From: Xestospongia bergquistia
Taxonomy: Eukaryota; Porifera; Demospongiae; Haplosclerida; Petrosiidae
Assembly (NCBI GenBank): GCA_963965975.1
Contig: OZ014419.1
Coordinates: 6,652,150-6,716,149 of the forward strand
Length of the DNA: 64,000 bases
Reading direction: 5' to 3'
The translations under genes were made by a program, and so were the position numbers. How positions within the stretch are numbered: position 1 is the stretch's first letter; the number at the start of each line of letters is the position of its first letter. The notes below the pieces were generated by a model. The model made no database searches and was not told where the DNA came from. It saw only the letters and a program-made list of their open reading frames with translations. Positions 6,327-63,576 of this stretch are shown piece by piece.

Positions 6327-9300
6327 ATGGCATCTGAAATCGACTTAGAGCATTTAGCTCTGCCTATCTCCAACGAAACAAACAAGAAACTTGAGCAAGA
6401 TGTCCATCAAAAACAACAAGAAATTGAGAAATTCCAACACCAAGTGAATGAACACAAAGATCGTATTCAAGTTATGAGTGATCATTTAAAGAATGTGAGA
6501 CAAGAGTTGCAACTAACTCAGGTATGTCTAAAAATAATATGTCTACTAATTTAATATTTGAATGATTCTAGGCTCTTTATGAGGCTCGAAAGAATGATGT
6601 TGAAACTGAAAAACATCTTACTCAACTAGGTGAGTATAAAATTGTACAATACTCATCTGTTTAAATCATCCCCTCAAGCTGAAAGAGAAGAAGGACGACT
6701 AAAAGATGGATATCGCAATCTCAAATCAAACCAAGAAAAATTGAATGAACAGATGAACTTGTATGAAAACAACATTTTTAGAACAAACAAGAAAACGGAA
6801 GATATGAGAAAAAATATGAATTGGGATCAACAGGTATATAAGACTGATTATAAAGTCTCCATCTTTTAACTGAGAACCATTTGCTATAGTATAGTCAATG
6901 GAAGAGTGGTATAAGCATCTTTAATTTAACAATAATTTCTTTTGTGGCATCATGTCATGTGATAATCATGTGATTTTTAGGCTCTAGAGGCATGGCTTGA
7001 AGAATCAGCACGACGTGATGAGGATGCTATGACAATTACGAAATATGCAAGAGCAGATGAAAGCAAAATTAAGGTAGTCAATTAAATTTGTCAACAAGCT
7101 CTACCAATGATGTTTTGATGATAGGAGCTTACCCTTAAATTAGAGCAACTTCAAGAGACAGCAGTAAAGAAGAAACGTGAGCTTGATACAGAAACAAACG
7201 ACACACTAACTGCTCAGGTCACCATCCATCCATTATCTATAAGATTTTCCATCTATCCATTTGTGTCCATCATCCATTCATCCATTGTTTTATCCATCCA
7301 TCCATTCATCCATTATAGATTGAGTTAGATAATACTGCAGAAGCATTTCGTCATGCTCACAGTGAACGTCAGGAGCTCATCTCTCAATGGGAACAAATTA
7401 TTGAACAAATGAAAAAGAGAGATCAAGACATGGATCGCACAGCTGCTGTATGTCATATGATAGTCATGTGATAACAATGTGACATTTGTATACAGGAATT
7501 GGCTCGTTTGAAAGCTGAAACAAGAGTAATGGAGACTATGATCAGTGAGAAAAAAGTAAAGTTGTTATTGACATAGTTGGATCCATTCCTGTCTGTCCAT
7601 TCCTATTTATTAATCCATTTAATACCAATATGCTGTCCATTTAATACCAATATGCTGTCCATTTGATACCAATCTATTATTTTGATCAGCAATTTTTAGA
7701 AGAAGAGAAAATGAACAATCAAGAAATGGACAAACGTATTAAACAGTCGGAAAATATATCGTCTAAAAATCGTCTGGAGTATCAAGACAAAGAGAAGGCC
7801 AGACAACAACTACGAGATGAAGTAAAGAATTAAATTTGTCTTCTTTTGAATTTGACATGTTGTCCTTCTTGTACTTGTAGTTGGAAACTTTGAAATATTC
7901 TGTTGATCGTACTGCTGCTGATCTTGAGAGTATGAGAGCCCAAAGTCATCATCTTACAAGAGATATTAAAGACAGAAAGTATAGGTAAATAAACATTAGT
8001 AGTTTGATAAACACTGTACTAAGAGTTAATTCACCACTTGCCTACAACTTGGCCTTCCAAGATTGCTCCTATGATAAATACTGATGTTTACTAGTCTAGA
8101 GCTTACCAATGGTAGCCATTCTAGGTCACTGTGAACTGATGTTCACTAGTCTAGAGCTTACTAATGGTATCCATTTTAGGTCACTGTGAACTGATGTTCA
8201 CTAGTCTAGAGCTTACTAATGGTAGTTATTCTAGGTCACTGTGAACTGATGTTTACTAGTCTAGAGCTTACTAATGGTAGTTATTCTAGGTCACTGTGAA
8301 CTGATGTTCACTAGTCTAGAGCTTACTAATGGTAGTTATTCTAGGTCACTGTGAACTGATGTTCACTAGTCTAGAGCTTACTAATGGTAGTTATTCTAGG
8401 TCACTGTGAACTGATGTTCACTAGTCTAGAGCTTACTAATGGTAGTTATTCTAGGTCACTGTGAACTGATGTTCACTAGTCTAGAGCTTACTAATGGTAG
8501 TTATTCTAGGTCACTGTGAACTGATGTTCACTAGTCTAGAGCTTACTAATGGTAGTTATTCTAGGTCACTGTGAACTGATGTTCACTAGTCTAGAACTAA
8601 TTATATGTTATTTAATTTAGACTAGACACTCTTCAACATCAACATGCAATAATGCAAGAAGAGCACAAAAAGTCCATTTTAAAGACACTCAGTGCTGAAG
8701 AGAGAGCACATAAAATGGACCAATTATTAGCAGAAGAAGAAAACAAAGTTGACCAGTTAGAGAAAGCCGTAGCTGTCCATCGTGAAAAACAATTCAAGAA
8801 AGTTCAAGAACTTCATGATCTCAAGAGAATGAAGCAAAACATGGAGGCTGAAATACAGGTACAATTACAGCACTAAACCTTTTTACAACAAAATCGAGCA
8901 CTAAACCATTTCCTCCTAACATTAGTATAAAATGGTCAACATGACCAGATATTAATATATTAATCAGACTAAAGACTAAATTATAGTTTCTTATAATTAT
9001 ATAGATGACTACTTTAATATGTTATCAATTCTTATTTATTTTCTAGGGCTCCAGGGTAGCATTACGTAATCTCATTTCCAAGCAACGTAAGATAGATGAA
9101 GAGGCACTTAAACAACAAGAACTTCTCTACACTCAAGACTTTCAACTGCAACAACTTGAACATAAATTGAACAGACTAGAAGGAGAAAGAACTGATGAAG
9201 AAAAGGCTCATCTTGATAACAAAATTAAAGTAAAATAATAAATATTATTTAAAATTTGTGACTTGTGACAAAATGTTACATGGACTCGTTTCATTAAGCA

Positions 9301-12344: not shown

Positions 12345-15300
12345 TTGGGTACTCTCCAAGTACATAAAATGTTTCGTGATGACTATGATTATGATCCTCC
12401 TGCTTCCTCACGATATCGAGACTACTTATATGAAAGAGAACGCTACGATGAAAGGGACAGACCCTTGAGAGGCAGTTATGGTTCTCCTCTTGATGATCCT
12501 TACTATCGTGGGCGTAGACCCGATGACATATTGCCACTTCCTCGACCAAAAGAACCATTACTAGGCCGATTTAGAATGGAAGATACAAATTCTTATGTAC
12601 AAGGCTCAGTCACAATAACCCCACCCCCTCTGTTCCAATCTAAACCACCCCTACGTGACAAACCACCAAAATGTAATACAGTCTTCGTTGGTACTCTTCC
12701 TGAGAGTATTACCGAAAAACATTTGTATGATATATTTTATGAATGTGGTTCTATACAGGATATTCGAATATCAAGAAGCAGAACCTTTGGTCATGTCGAG
12801 TTTAAATATGAGAGCGCTGTCGATAAAGCTATTCAGTTTAATGGTTTCACTATTACAATCAATGGACTTAACAGTGAGGAAAGTTCATCCATTCAAGTTG
12901 ACTATGCTCAATCAAGAGAGTCATCTGATGCTAAGCGCCGAATGAAAAGTGGAGAATTTTTAGTGTTCAATGCACCCAATGCTCACATTATTTCTAGCGA
13001 TCTACGTAATGATGATACCTTTGAATTTGCTTCTAAAAACCTCATACAATGGATGGAAAAAGGAAGCTGTTCTCCTACAACTGCTAACACATTCTTTGGT
13101 CTCCTGAGTACTGTCAATACACACTGTCATAAGTTGGAGAAAGATTTGAAGAGTAAAGAAGAAGAACATGAAAAATTCTTGAAAAAAAAGATCGATCAGT
13201 TACAAGATTTACTGATTCAGTGTAAGTTCTTGACAAGAACTTCCCTTATTCTCATATAAATGACTTCATTAAGGGAGTTTCCTCTTATCAGAATTTAATT
13301 AACAAAGTTAATTATTGTGTAAGTATCATTGAAGGCTTTATGAAGCTCTAACAAGTACTGCCTAATATTACATATATACTATATAATATTAGAGTGTACT
13401 ATATAATATTAATATGTACTATTATAATATTAGGGTTTACTATATAGTAGTGATATGTACTATATAATATTAATATGTACTATATAATATTAGGGTTTAC
13501 TATATAGTAGTGATATGTACTATATAATATTAATATGTACTATATAATATTAGGGTTTACTATATAGTAGTGATATGTACTATATAATATTAATAATGTA
13601 CTATATAATATTAGGGTTTACTATATAGTAGTGATATGTACTATATAATATTAATATGTACTATATAATATTAGGGTTTACTATATAGTAGTGATATGTA
13701 TTATATAATATTAATATGTACTATTATAATATTAGGGTTTACTATATAGTAGTGATATGTACTATATAATATTAATATGTACTATATAATATTAGGGTTT
13801 ACTATATAGTAGTGATATGTACTATATAATATTAATATGTACTATTATAATATTAGGACGTACTAGCTAACATTTACTATTATAATATTAATATGTGCTT
13901 GTAAGAAATATCTTAGTATTACTAAATGTACTATTTTTTCTTCTTGTTGCCTAGGTGATGGCCTAGAGTCTGTCTTTGATGCTTCAATGCAGAAAAGGGC
14001 CTGGGACAATTTTACCAAACCTCAACGTAAGACCATTACTCAATGGAAAGAACACATACAGAATATGATTGGACTCGTGAAGGCTTCCATCAAGAATGCG
14101 AAAGAATTGAGAGGAAAAGCTGATGAACCTGCTGCAAAGAAAATGAAATCAGACCACAGTGAGATTTTACATAGTGTCAGCTAACTTGGATTTTTGTTGG
14201 GGGTTAATAATTGTGTAGACAGAGGGTTAATTAATGTACATCATATAGCAGCCATTTTGTATAATTTTATTACTATCAGATGACAGTAATGTTGATGAAG
14301 CAACTGAAGCCAAACTGTCTCGAGCTGAACGTGAGATAGAACAGTTGAAAGTTGATCGCGAGATTGCAATTGAGAAAAAAGAGAAACAGGTCAACCTTTA
14401 ACTCATACAGTAGTGTAGTCTATATGCCTTTCCTTCTCCTATATGTATAGATATTGCAGCTGAAGACATTATTAGCAAAATTCAAACAAGTAAGCAGTAA
14501 TTCAGAGCCTAAAGTCACATACCTTACTAGTAGTCAGTTGTTTTATGTATTATACACAAATAGTGGGTGGTTACCTTCAATATAGTGGTTATTGTTGTTC
14601 AATATAGTGGTCATTGTTGTTTTTGTTTGGTATAGAATTGTCCAGATGAGTGGGAAAAGATTGTCGGAGGAGGAGGAGGTAGTGGTAATAGTGAGAACGG
14701 CCAACAGCAACAAGATCCAGAACAGGTAAGAGCTTCTTTATGCACTTGTAGTTGTCAGGTAAGAAAGCCATTGAGAAAACCATAAATGGAATGTCTATGG
14801 AAGTTTAGCATTAGTTATAAATACATTGTTTAAAAGGGCCAAATTAAACCTCCTTTGGTTCAACTATAATAGAGGTTTCAAACAGCATTATGAATTAGGT
14901 AGATACTGACAGTAGAGCTGCACAGGTAGAAGAGCTTATGTATTGGTCACATGCTCTAGTAGCGTTTACACACATTCCACCACCTCCCTTCTGTTTTATA
15001 CTGGCTTACCTTCTTGCTGCATGGCTGTCAAAGGTCATAGCATCACAGAACAATAAAGACGAGAATAATGAAGAGAACGAAGGAGACAATGAAGGAGAAT
15101 GGGAAGTTATTGATGGTGTCAACATGGATGATCTCAACAGAGCTCTAGATGGAGGGTCACTTGGAGAAAATACTCTGGCTGCCGCAGCTGCTGCTTATGC
15201 TCAACTTCGTACTCAAATAGGTTCAAAAAGTGAAGAGACAGGATTGGGACTTAGTGAGCACGATATTGCTCTATCTGCTGTAATGGCTGCCTTTCTAACT

Positions 15301-36515: not shown

Positions 36516-37600
36516 ATGCCTTCTAAACAGAGAATGAGATTGGCCAGTCAGAAACACAGCCAGAATGTCAACCACAGAGGCAATGTAGTTAAGAGTTTGG
36601 TGAGTTCAGTCTATGATGTATTAAGTTAAACACTGTCTTTATAGAAAGGAGCTGAAGAGAAGAGTCCTCTTGGCCCCTATCTTTTGGCATTCATCATCTT
36701 TGTTGTTTGTGGATCCGGTAAGTAGTATTATGTGATAAAGTGGGGGAATAATAATGTTTGTTGTAAAAAATAGTCTGACGTTAAGAGTGGCCCTTCCATT
36801 TTGAGAAATGTAAACTAATTATATTACCTGTGTTTACTGTATTTATTTAAATGTTTATGATAATAGATAAGTTTCAAAATTACATCATTAAGATAAATTT
36901 ATCATAAATTATATAACTTGTACAGTTTACTAACCAAGTATATGAACTATAGATGGGAAATGACTTGTATTAAACAGCCGATATGTTGTGTGTTGTTGTA
37001 AGGCAGTCATAGTTTATCAACAAAAGTGACACTATTGTGTTAATAGTATACTGTGTTGTCTTCTTGTCCACACCTGTTAAGGGTGTTGTCTCTTGTGGGT
37101 GCCATAATAGTTGTCTATGGAAATGACAATGTTTATTATATTAATGATAGCTATCCTAGGTCACTGTGGTAAGTACTGATGTTCATTAGTCTAATGGTTG
37201 ACGTAGGTCACTGTGGTAAGTATTGATGTTTGCTAGTCTAGAGTTTACTAATGGTAGCTATCCTAGGTCACTGTGGTAAGTTTTGATGTTCTCTAGTCTA
37301 GAGTTTACTAATGGTAGCTATCCTAGGTCACTGTGGTAAGTTTTGATGTTCACCAGTCTAGAGCTTACTAATGATAGGTAACGTAGGTCACTTTGGTAAG
37401 TATTGATGTTCACTAGTCTAGAGCTTACTAATGGTAGCTATCCTAGGTCACTGTGGTAAGTACTGATGTTCACTAGTCTAGAGCTTACTAATGGTAGCTA
37501 TTGTAGGTACTACTATAGAGGTACCTTCCTACTAATGCACATTTTTATTTTATTCATTCCAGCAATCTTCCAAATTGTTCAAAGTATTTGGATGAGTTAA
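36516..37600 (+). CDS. SERP1: SERP1/RAMP4, stress-associated ER membrane protein
   Basis: Three exons (36516-36599, 36645-36717, 37563-37600) give 64 residues. The start, MPSKQRMRLASQKHSQNVNH, then RGNVVKSLKGAEEK, and the tail helix [20 protein letters not shown] match human RAMP4 ([20 protein letters not shown], then RGNVAK, and [20 protein letters not shown]). It is a tail-anchored protein bound to the Sec61 translocon at the ribosome exit; it stabilises nascent membrane proteins during stress. The 845-base second intron is long for such a small gene and holds the 60-base minisatellite. The last coding exon has 12 codons plus the second and third bases of a split Ala codon. The gene ends convergently with TMCO3. 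Confidence 0.95.
37147..37510 (+). repeat. 60-base minisatellite in the SERP1 second intron
   Basis: About six copies of a unit that runs CTAGGTCACTGTGGTAAGTA, CTGATGTTCACTAGTCTAGA, GCTTACTAATGGTAGCTATC. Four consecutive rows from 37261 keep an exact 60-base period. The unit equals the 55-base unit at 8081-8594 plus five bases, where GTGGTAAGTACTG replaces GTGAACTG. Each 60-base copy therefore carries a GGTAAGT splice-donor-like word. Confidence 0.95.
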
Positions 37601-56739: not shown

Positions 56740-57590
56740 AATGTGATAAAACCTAATGTCCAAACATAAAGCCTTAAGATATCTATAGCAGATCTTAAAC
56801 AATTAATTTCTATTAGTCAAAGTCATCAATTGACACAGGATTAATTTGACACAGGATTAATTTGAAAAGTCAATTTTAATTACCAATTCACCTTAGAGAA
56901 ACAACACCTCAATAATCATAATTACAAGAGCCTTAAGCCCTAATGCCGAACTTAAAGTCTTAAAATCTCTATCGCAATCCTTAAACCCTAGTTTATATGA
57001 GTGAAAATGACCAATAGAGTAGATACTGAAGTTTTGTGACAAAATATCTTTCAAAGTGACATTGTTAACAAATTCATATGAGAAGAATGACATGACCTTA
57101 ATTGTATGATTGCAATGGCCTTAAACCCTAATCACCATGCAGAAAACCTTAAGATGTCTATGGCAGTCCTTAAAGTCTAATTTTTATGAGTCAACCCTAA
57201 TATGCCAACATCAAGCCTTAAGATTTCTATTGCAAACTTTAATTGATCCCTCCTTTATATGAGTAAAGTAGCGAATGAAGTATATACTGAAGTTTGGTAC
57301 AATATATATATATATATATGAGAAAAATGACATCATCCTAATTGATATGATTAGAGTAAATTTAAACCCTAATTGCCAAAGATAAAGCTTAAAGTGGCTA
57401 TGACATCCCTTATACCTTAATTATTTTGTGTGAAAATGGAGTAAATATTGAAGTTTAGGCACAAGATATCTTTGGAAAGTGATGTTAGTAACCAATTCAC
57501 TTGTGAAATATGACATCATCCTAACTGGCATGATTACAATGCCTAATCGTCAAACATAAAGCAAGTCTATGGCAGTCCTTAACTCAAACT
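56740..57590. repeat. Degenerate tandem repeat, period about 170-186 bases
   Basis: Six recognisable starts of the form CCCTAATxxCCAAACATAAAG followed by a CTTAAGATxTCTATxGCAGTCCTTAA core lie at about 56752, 56938, 57124, 57194, 57365 and 57541. Spacings are 186, 186, 70, 171 and 176. A TATGAGTxAAAxTG block and a GTAGATACTGAAGTTT block recur between them. The copies have drifted well apart, so the array is old. Confidence 0.75.
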
Positions 57591-57603
57591 ATACAATACT
57601 TTG

Positions 57604-58012
57604 ATAAAAAGGTGAGCTTGATCAACTATTGAACAGACTTCAAACTCTTGGTGTGACAGATGCCATGAAGTCTCACCCAATTAGTACTGATCCTTTATGC
57701 CCTACTGAATTGACTCCAGGTATTGATTGAATAGAAGAGTCAACAGTATGTGTAATCTGTGGTAATGTTGTTTATTCTTCTATTCCTAATTAGGACTATC
57801 AAGTCACTGTTTCAAAACTGAGTTGGCTACTCTGAGAATTCAAGTCATAGAAAGGAGAAAGAAATGTCAACGTATGTACATTTGGTGACTATTTAAGGAC
57901 TTCAGTAATCCAGCAACCTTGTATCCAACAGCTTCTACATGTACTATTCACTTTCTCACTCACTCTACCTACACAATACTACAATGACTATAATCAATTT
58001 AAACTCAAGGTG
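57604..58012 (+). pseudogene. Fragment of a HECT-gene 3' end (paralogue of 62783-63540)
   Basis: 57604-57725 reads ELDQLLNRLQTLGV and MKSHPIS, as in the HECT gene at 62783-62850. The following 150 bases, including the intron-like GTATTGATTGAATAGA and the block CAAGTCATAGAAAGGAGAAA, also match 62909-63055. 57919-58012 matches the HECT C-lobe end (63451-63535), including the TCTACATGTACT that holds the catalytic cysteine codon. No upstream domain is present, and part of the sequence between the blocks is missing, so it is a truncated pseudogene copy. Confidence 0.8.
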
Positions 58013-61766: not shown

Positions 61767-63576
61767 TTATTCAATGGAAGACATCATACAAAGGTTGTCC
61801 AGAAAAGTGGAGCAATATGATGAATTTTTATTGGAAGTTGACAGAGAATGTGTACTTGCAGACGGTTTTAAAATTGTGAACAATTGCGACTTTTCTCCCA
61901 CTAAACTTATCAAAGTATGTACAAGTTGTATTTTCACATAAACTAGACTTTCTTCAATAGGTTGTCTTCAAAGGAAAACAGGGTGAAGATGGTGGAGGAC
62001 TGGGAAGAGAACTTTGGCACCTTTTAAAAGTAGTTCGACATGATATTTTTGGTCTTCAGGTATATAATGCATGAAATCATTTGAATGATGTTGACAGTTT
62101 TAAACATATAATGTCTGTTGCTGCTAATGATTTTCTCTCAACTCCATTGTAGACAAATGTTTTTTACAAAATTGGCTCTTTGATGTCTGAATCTCTTAGT
62201 CAAGGAGGATCAGGCTATCCTTATATCTGTAAAAGGGTTTATACGATTACCTTTGTGGCAAGGAGCTTAACGAAATCACTATTGACTATACTATTATACC
62301 TAATTATGACATCAAGCTATTAGTAAGCAAGGTAAATAAGTCATGATGACTATGTTATAGGTACTTCTAATTTAAGAGTGTATTCAGCTGAGATTTACTG
62401 AACTAGCCTAATTTTGTTGTGTAGTTTCTTTATTTTATGTTAAAAAAAGAATCACAGTACTATTCCCACAATACAACTTTATAATTTGTTTATAACTTTC
62501 CTACTTAAGCAGTTAGGGACACTTTTCCAATCTCTCTTATTTATGGACTTGTTAATTGTTGTCTTAGATGATAGATGCTGTCAGCAATGAGCAGATCCAA
62601 GTCCTATCAATGGATGCAATAGAAGTACTGTCCTACTGTGGGTTCAATAAGAGTCCCACAACATTGACACTTGAAGATCGTTCTACCTTAGTGCATAGAA
62701 TCACAATGTACTATACAATACTTGAAGATCGTTCTACCTTAGTGCATAGAATCACAATGTACTATACAATACTTCGATCAAAAGCCGAGCTTGATCAACT
62801 ATTGAATGGACTTCAAACTCTTGGTGTGCCAGATGACATGAAGTCTCACCCGATTAGTCTTAGAACTCCTCTTCACTGCTCCTTCACACTCTAATGAATT
62901 GACTTCAGGTATTGATTGAATAGAAAAGTCGATAGTACATATAATCTGTGGTAATGATTTTGCTCTTTTATTTCTAATAGTGAGTATCAAGTCACTGTTT
63001 CAAAACCGAGTTCACTACTCTGAGAATTCAAGTCATAGAAAGGAGAAAGAGATGGCAACGTACATACTTTTTGGTGACTGCAAAAGTAAGCATCCTATTT
63101 ATTAAAAATAAATATTCATTTACCAATAATGTCAATACTTTCTGGTGATGGGGTTGGCCTTGTGGTTTATAGCTCACTAAGTAATGACATGATTGAGTTA
63201 GTTTCAGCCTCCATTGTCTTAGTGGTTTCTTTGATATCATTTCATTAGTCACTTTATGTATACATTTACTAAGATTAGTTGTAAAGTTTGCATATACTGT
63301 TTATATACTTTCAATATACTTTCACATTCCTTACAGGTGGGAGTAATGAAGTTTCCTTAAAGGACATTCTGAGTTTTTACTGGTTCATCAGCTGTACCTC
63401 CACTCGAGTTTGATATAGATCCAACTCTGTCATTCAGCGACGATGCAGTCTATCCAACAGCCTCTACATGTACTTTCACACTCACTCTACCTACACGATA
63501 TTACATTGACTATAATCAATTTAAACTCAAAATGGATCAGGCCTTTACTTGTCATGGTGGGTTTGGTGTAGTTTGA
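61767..63576 (+). pseudogene. HECT ubiquitin-ligase domain of the G2E3-like gene, decayed
   Basis: Exons at 61767-61914, 61961-62059, 62153-62331, 62568-62880 and a last one at about 63336-63576 carry a HECT domain: VVFKGKQGEDGGGLGRELWH, NVFYKIGSLMSESLSQGG, IEVLSYCGFNKSPTTL, AELDQLLNGLQTLGVPDDMK, and the C-lobe DPTLSFSDDAVYPTASTCTF with the expected catalytic cysteine and the GFGVV end. The frame shifts at least three times against the family: near 62243-62247 (before LCGKELNEI), near 62860 (before APSHSNELTS) and near 63378 (before TGSSAVPPLEF). A 51-base in-frame tandem duplication lies at 62673-62774. A shortened product or a pseudogene is likely; sequencing error is possible but unlikely at three points. 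Confidence 0.7.
62673..62774 (+). repeat. 51-base tandem duplication inside the HECT exon
   Basis: Two identical copies of a 51-base unit, which adds LEDRSTLVHRITMYYTI a second time in frame. The identity means the duplication is recent. Confidence 0.95.

Follow-up and report, generated by a model that had tools for sequence, protein, structure and literature searches.

Tandem arrays of one unit in CCDC39 and SERP1 introns of a sponge, probable members of a dispersed 60-bp minisatellite family

Why should two unrelated introns, 29 kb apart, hold tandem arrays of what looks like one and the same unit? The question arises in a 64,000-nucleotide stretch of the genome of the sponge Xestospongia bergquistia, referred to here as the window (C9:6652150-6716149, in a genome of 146,460,797 bases on 21 contigs; G+C content 34%). 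The two arrays, A and B, and their host introns are listed in Table 1. By TRF, array A has a period of 55 and a 97% match, and six of its nine full copies are identical, which supports, for this array, the recent internal expansion that had been proposed from the letters of the window. The TRF core of array B spans 37204-37508 (period 60, 5.1 copies, 91% match), and its limits were widened from this core by wraparound alignment to the 60-bp unit. The consensus units of the two arrays are identical except for a five-base gap, with GTGGTAAGTACTGATG in B and GTGAACTGATG in A; TRF, the listing of copies and this comparison bear out the proposal that one unit underlies both arrays. The word GGTAAGT, said to occur in each copy of the second form, is present in all complete copies of array B and absent from its final, cut-off copy, and the claim stands for the complete copies only. 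The host genes had been named CCDC39 and SERP1, and Pfam matches agree with both names: exon readings joined by hand gave CCDC39 at E=1e-18 for the host of array A and RAMP4 at E=2.8e-26 for that of array B. Both arrays lie in the sense orientation relative to their host genes, and array A stops about 25 nt short of the CCDC39 intron acceptor. An Rfam scan of the window at the gathering threshold returned no matches. Elsewhere in the window, positions 57588-57890 and 62761-63079 are 82% similar, and at 56.6-57.6 kb there are several stretches of about 244 bp each, related and close to one another.

Table 1. Arrays A and B and the introns that host them (window positions)
Feature	Position	Strand	Description	Basis
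Array A	8080-8595	+	55-bp unit, 9.4 copies	TRF, copies listed
Array B	37139-37511	+	60-bp unit, 6.2 copies, degenerate edge units	TRF core and wraparound alignment
CCDC39 intron hosting array A	7985-8620	+		Sequence, joined exon reading against Pfam, exon scan
SERP1 (RAMP4) intron hosting array B	36718-37562	+		Sequence, joined exon reading against Pfam

The unit is far from confined to the window. A search of the whole genome for a 31-mer of the unit, up to three mismatches being allowed, gave 905 matches on the forward and 1,028 on the reverse strand, 1,933 in all, while the reversed 31-mer, used as a control, matched on neither strand. The earlier claim of spread, for which a genome-wide search for the unit had been named as the check, is thereby confirmed by a large number of further copies. 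With array A as query, 112 matches came from the best 40 of 441 candidates, and with array B 155 matches from the best 40 of 436; among the matches listed for the two queries we compiled at least 61 distinct arrays on 12 contigs. The same tandem unit is thus found at many unlinked loci, as in a dispersed satellite or minisatellite family. The DNA that we fetched held 71 arrays, A and B included, with 754 units, 615 of them complete, and all fetched loci of the family were arrays. The biggest array among the matches listed (C1:9200264-9206572, about 6.3 kb) lies on the largest contig; it and the array at C9:6785102 stand outside the unit statistics. At loci L039, L040, L065 and L005, arrays of opposite orientation lie 0-0.8 kb apart, and in L040 the two orientations abut. 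An exact 23-mer found no match in viral contigs. Text searches, as opposed to sequence searches, of the literature on sponge minisatellites, introners with tandem repeats and splice-donor minisatellites turned up no such family by name.

Genome-wide, units of this family have the 60-bp form; the 55-bp unit is a private variant of array A. With one mismatch allowed, the 55-bp junction had nine matches in the genome, all nine of them inside array A. Given this restriction, it is array A that lost five bases, and with them the donor word; the sequence-only reading, which had credited the second form with five more bases, had the direction reversed. A local five-base deletion would have given the 55-bp form, which would then have spread across array A. 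The deletion creates a perfect six-base inverted repeat, GTGAAC TGAT GTTCAC, in the array A unit, and the 55-bp dimer is predicted to fold better as single-stranded DNA than its shuffles (z -3.0); for the 60-bp dimer, predicted folding was no better than that of shuffles on either strand. Private variants such as this one could serve to time events.

Variation in the 60-bp unit points to a mixed pool. Two common master variants differ at unit position 7, which is C in one (C7) and T in the other (T7). Exact copies were found in 27 arrays for C7 and in 26 for T7, and among arrays of four or more complete units 30 of 64 contain both variants in two or more copies each. Such mixing, together with exact master units in many arrays, is expected if multi-unit pieces seed arrays, although recurrent C-to-T change can also explain the mixing. 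Unit identity is only slightly higher within arrays (93.5%) than between them (90.6%). Arrays L065 (on C4) and L071 (on C14) have an exact block of 135 bases in common, with four non-consensus changes; a common 90-mer bearing at least two non-consensus variants was found in only 7 of 2,485 array pairs, so that donor and recipient are mostly untraceable. Edge units diverge more than inner units (5.9% against 4.2%; 45 of 66 arrays, p = 0.0007), array A being excluded from this test as well as from the per-position table. More diverged edge units are the usual mark of turnover by unequal exchange. Taken together, the unit pool and the divergence at the edges fit a course in which multi-unit pieces drawn from a mixed pool seed arrays that then turn over locally. 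At L059 (C4:9587550-9588100), part of the coding exon next to the array, which by eye looks RRM-like, is found with its donor inside one array copy; exon sequence was apparently copied there as the array grew.

We conclude that arrays A and B are probably members of a dispersed, satellite-like 60-bp minisatellite family that recombination or repair has dispersed in pieces of several units. This reading is based on the many short arrays, their unrelated flanks and random registers, variants that are common to chromosomes, the occurrence of both orientations and the clustering in outer arms. Such pieces would leave existing arrays by copying or release, possibly as DNA circles or as the template or filler with which a double-strand break is mended. 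They would then enter non-coding DNA at any register, in part in the chromosome region of their origin; we infer this insertion step itself. The pasted arrays would then grow and shrink via unequal exchange, and selection would remove insertions into exons, so that the remaining arrays would often be intronic.

The chromosomal distribution of the family is skewed. Contigs C1 to C14 total 140.8 Mb and C15 has at least 4.8 Mb, which gives about 15 large contigs, including two outsized ones. There were no exact matches to TTAGGG x5, and contig ends therefore stand in for chromosome ends. Among the matches listed, 58 of 61 arrays lie in the outer half of contigs and 51 of 61 in the outer 30% (Kolmogorov-Smirnov test against uniform, p = 1e-17); after collapse at 100 kb these figures are 40 and 34 of 43 (p = 1e-10). 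The list of 61 consists of best-scored candidates only, and it was re-checked with a complete exact-match listing of a less common variant, whose 50 matches, all listed, form 26 loci, 24 of them in the outer half. Contigs C1 and C2, which make up 30% of the genome, hold one of the 61 arrays among the matches listed, where 18 would be expected, and none of the 26 loci in the complete exact listing. Among the matches listed for the exact 31-mer, C1 has one more locus, at 13.75 Mb, and C2 has no match between those of C1 and C3. Diverged relatives (66-81% identity) of an unrelated AT-rich 60-bp tandem array at window positions 13395-13857 are present on many contigs and form with it a second dispersed tandem family. 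Among the matches listed, the outer half of contigs holds 29 of the 31 places that this family occupies outside C1 and C2, and after collapse at 100 kb its listed positions do not differ from those of the 60-bp family (Mann-Whitney p = 0.42); listed kinase matches are mildly biased outward too. The arm bias is therefore not unique to the 60-bp family. Its arrays are also clumped, with 13 of 58 neighbour gaps at or below 15 kb among the fetched arrays, which are not a random sample.

The strongest alternative is that of old loci which gene conversion or ectopic exchange, acting mainly in the outer arms of chromosomes, has kept alike. The concentration of arrays in these arms and the greater divergence of array edges than of interiors would suit such exchange, as would the likeness of arrays by distance, for which arrays with fewer than three full units were omitted and 67 of 70 used. 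All pairs within 300 kb were more alike than random pairs (mean distance 4.36 against 5.20, permutation p = 0.003), and the 47 pairs 30-300 kb apart had a mean distance of 3.93 against 5.20 overall (p = 0.0002). The 27 pairs within 30 kb were no more alike than random (p = 0.45 and 0.47 in two tests), possibly owing to short, noisy arrays among them; arrays as local offspring of their neighbours thus find no support at that range, though they may at 30-300 kb. Likeness within 300 kb implies some regional relation, whether by regional spread or by exchange, and it moved slight weight from our preferred reading to exchange. On the other side, every locus still requires a first insertion, and the 55-bp form of array A has stayed fully private and was not overwritten by other arrays. 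We regard exchange as the main source of the likeness as possible, with odds well below those of spread by multi-unit pieces.

Dispersal of multi-unit pieces and carriage by a transposon make different predictions for the sequence around the arrays. A Helitron- or Helentron-like or foldback element would bring the repeats as an internal array; such carriage is known for Cg_HINE elements of the oyster (PMC7492417), and the close inverted pairs at L039, L040, L065 and L005 could be taken in favour of one. We compared array-masked flanks all against all by BLAST, in short flanks and then in about 119 kb of flanking DNA that included the 1.2-1.4 kb flanks of 40 arrays, and found no common flank across the family. 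Flank sequence adjoining the array edge is common to only two pairs, C1:13.745 with C4:8.538-8.541 Mb and C4:9.563 with C4:9.576 Mb. The C1/C4 common flank has three matches genome-wide, all confined to those two regions, which further argues against a carrier; the two regions have about 2 kb in common, including a second tandem array. Judged by sequence, this pair is a segmental duplication in which array length later changed (4.6 against 9.7 copies). Arrays L118 and L122 have a 141-bp repeat in common, away from the array edges. The other flank matches, of 34-72 bp (L060/L137, L060/L107 and L147/window), are neither at edges nor recurrent, and some further ones are simple-repeat-like stretches.

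The array termini gave a similar picture. For the 66 arrays with both ends within the fetched DNA, arrays scoring below 40 and L066, which duplicates part of L005, being excluded, starts and ends showed no significant preference for any position in the unit (Rayleigh p = 0.41 and 0.36; chi-square p = 0.22 and 0.37). No target-site duplication was seen between left and right flanks, whose longest common word averaged 4.62 against 4.55 in shuffled pairs. Apart from the two duplicated pairs, then, flanks are unrelated and edges have no fixed register, as in a dispersed satellite family; neither the conserved flanking modules and termini of a Helitron- or Helentron-borne repeat nor the target-site duplication of a TIR or foldback transposon was found. 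The end register fell within six bases of the start register in 12 of the 66 arrays, against 14.3 expected, and this independence gives no indication of whole-circle insertion in particular. The sequence-only reading had suggested spread by a mobile carrier or by gene conversion. Its first half finds no support, for want of a common flank, fixed termini or a target-site duplication signal, and a transposon carrier is improbable; its second half is possible, arrays within 300 kb being somewhat more alike than random.

How the arrays lie with respect to genes was approached with an exon finder that combines codon usage from long open reading frames with splice weights. Run on the flanks of 50 arrays, it called 143 exons, against 19 on the reversed sequence. 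Both sides agreed on strand for 26 of the 50 arrays, exons were found on one side for 12, the sides conflicted for 4 and no exon was found for 8; array B is counted among the 26 via exons of neighbouring genes. The same agreeing-strand rule picked out 27 of 91 non-exonic places in the window, and against this background, which is one window, the arrays look moderately enriched in introns. Ten of the 26 resolved arrays are sense to their genes and 16 antisense (p = 0.33), the automatic call for array B having been removed and L079 set to sense by its nearest exons; with array B added by hand as sense, the count is 11 against 16. These counts speak against a sense-strand bias of intronic arrays, which had been raised for checking.

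Some host introns are very short outside the array. The intron-boundary step covered 32 of the 50 sampled arrays, and at 7 of these 32 loci a short intron is filled by the array except for 38-65 nt, with a predicted donor and acceptor; at one of these loci, L071, the predicted donor lies inside the array. By the same exon predictor, about 1.1% of non-exonic DNA falls in introns of 30-70 nt, and 7 of 32 loci is thus, per base, far above chance. Other tandem arrays lay in introns with at most 70 nt outside the array in 8 of 51 cases in the same flanks and in 0 of 27 in the window, so that the 60-bp family, at 7 of 50, does not differ from them, at 8 of 78 (Fisher p = 0.35). Among TRF rows of at least 100 bp, 5 of 23 fell in short introns, overlapping rows of one array being counted apart. 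Targeting of minimal introns as a trait special to the 60-bp family was accordingly rejected, and the short-intron pattern is general to tandem arrays in these genes. The length-weighted, per-base null may itself be unfair, in that long introns are perhaps grown short ones. We speculate, tentatively, that minimal introns (about 40-70 nt) are preferred sites of array growth, with lengthening in one step and at a rate per intron. On the same conjecture, which we hold to be possible without favouring it, several unrelated minisatellites would fill the intron interior and leave about 10-50 nt per splice site. If the pattern holds, it would tie intron lengthening to tandem-array insertion in a manner that is directly testable between related species.

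Introners are repeated sequence in many introns, and the 60-bp family resembles them in that respect. The sense unit also contains GTAAGT, TACTAAT and CCTAG, with its TAG, in the order of a 51-nt intron. A splicing-linked unit of this kind, with donor, branch-like and acceptor words, would spread as or into introns via splicing. At L071 (C14:386489) a predicted exon ends exactly at the array start, the array's first GTAAGT being the predicted host donor; this is a suggestive single locus. The unit as a mini-intron, striking by eye, was nevertheless rejected: 159 of 1,000 shuffles were equally intron-like, the unit acceptor is weak with a score near zero, splice-like positions are not significantly more conserved (divergence 3.7% against 5.7%, p = 0.36), and the donor word is retained alike in sense and antisense arrays (0.76 and 0.77). 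Element ends do not coincide with splice sites as they do in introners; the predicted donor lay in the array in 1 of the 16 junction sets listed, that of L071, and the predicted acceptors of all 16 lay outside it. The family differs from introners further in occurring in both orientations and in that an intronic position could be assigned to no more than 26 of 50 arrays. Spread by splicing is, in our estimate, very improbable.

A local segmental duplication connecting arrays A and B, the simpler reading in the absence of other copies, is suggested by the mere 29 kb between them and can be dismissed, refuted as it is by the many other copies genome-wide, by A and B flanks that have no match and by a unit distance of 12.8 between A and B, which are less alike than average (means 9.5 for A and 8.0 for B).

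Spread as multi-unit pieces places the 60-bp family beside dispersed satellites of other animals. TCAST of Tribolium is a dispersed euchromatic satellite that is enriched in introns and reported mainly as single repeats (PMC5844308), and the 1.688 family of Drosophila has an array in introns of the duplicated Netrin genes, with differing lengths (PMC7642928). Like the sponge family, each is spread over many euchromatic sites, introns often among them, and the likeness is one of behaviour; the unit here is 60 bp. Whereas TCAST is described mainly as single repeats, all fetched loci are arrays here. The sponge family also differs from both in its outer-arm bias and its scarcity on the two largest contigs, and it has no large mother array among the matches listed, the largest being about 6.3 kb (C1:9.20 Mb). 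For mollusc satellite DNA of the DTHS3 class, junctions along the whole monomer, anonymous flanks and bordering monomers without notable difference are reported (PMC5139131); junctions without a fixed point and anonymous flanks recur here, while the units at array edges diverge slightly more than those inside. The oyster Cg_HINE consists of Helentron-borne satellite-like repeats in dispersed short arrays (PMC7492417), and the sponge family resembles it in its dispersed short arrays and differs in that conserved flanking modules were not found. By analogy, then, the 60-bp family appears to behave like TCAST, 1.688 and the mollusc satellite DNAs, and does not pass as a Helentron-borne repeat. 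Dispersed satellites in euchromatin and introns are already known; what is new is the 60-bp family itself as a further member, a countable example of a minisatellite dispersed over an animal genome without a visible carrier.
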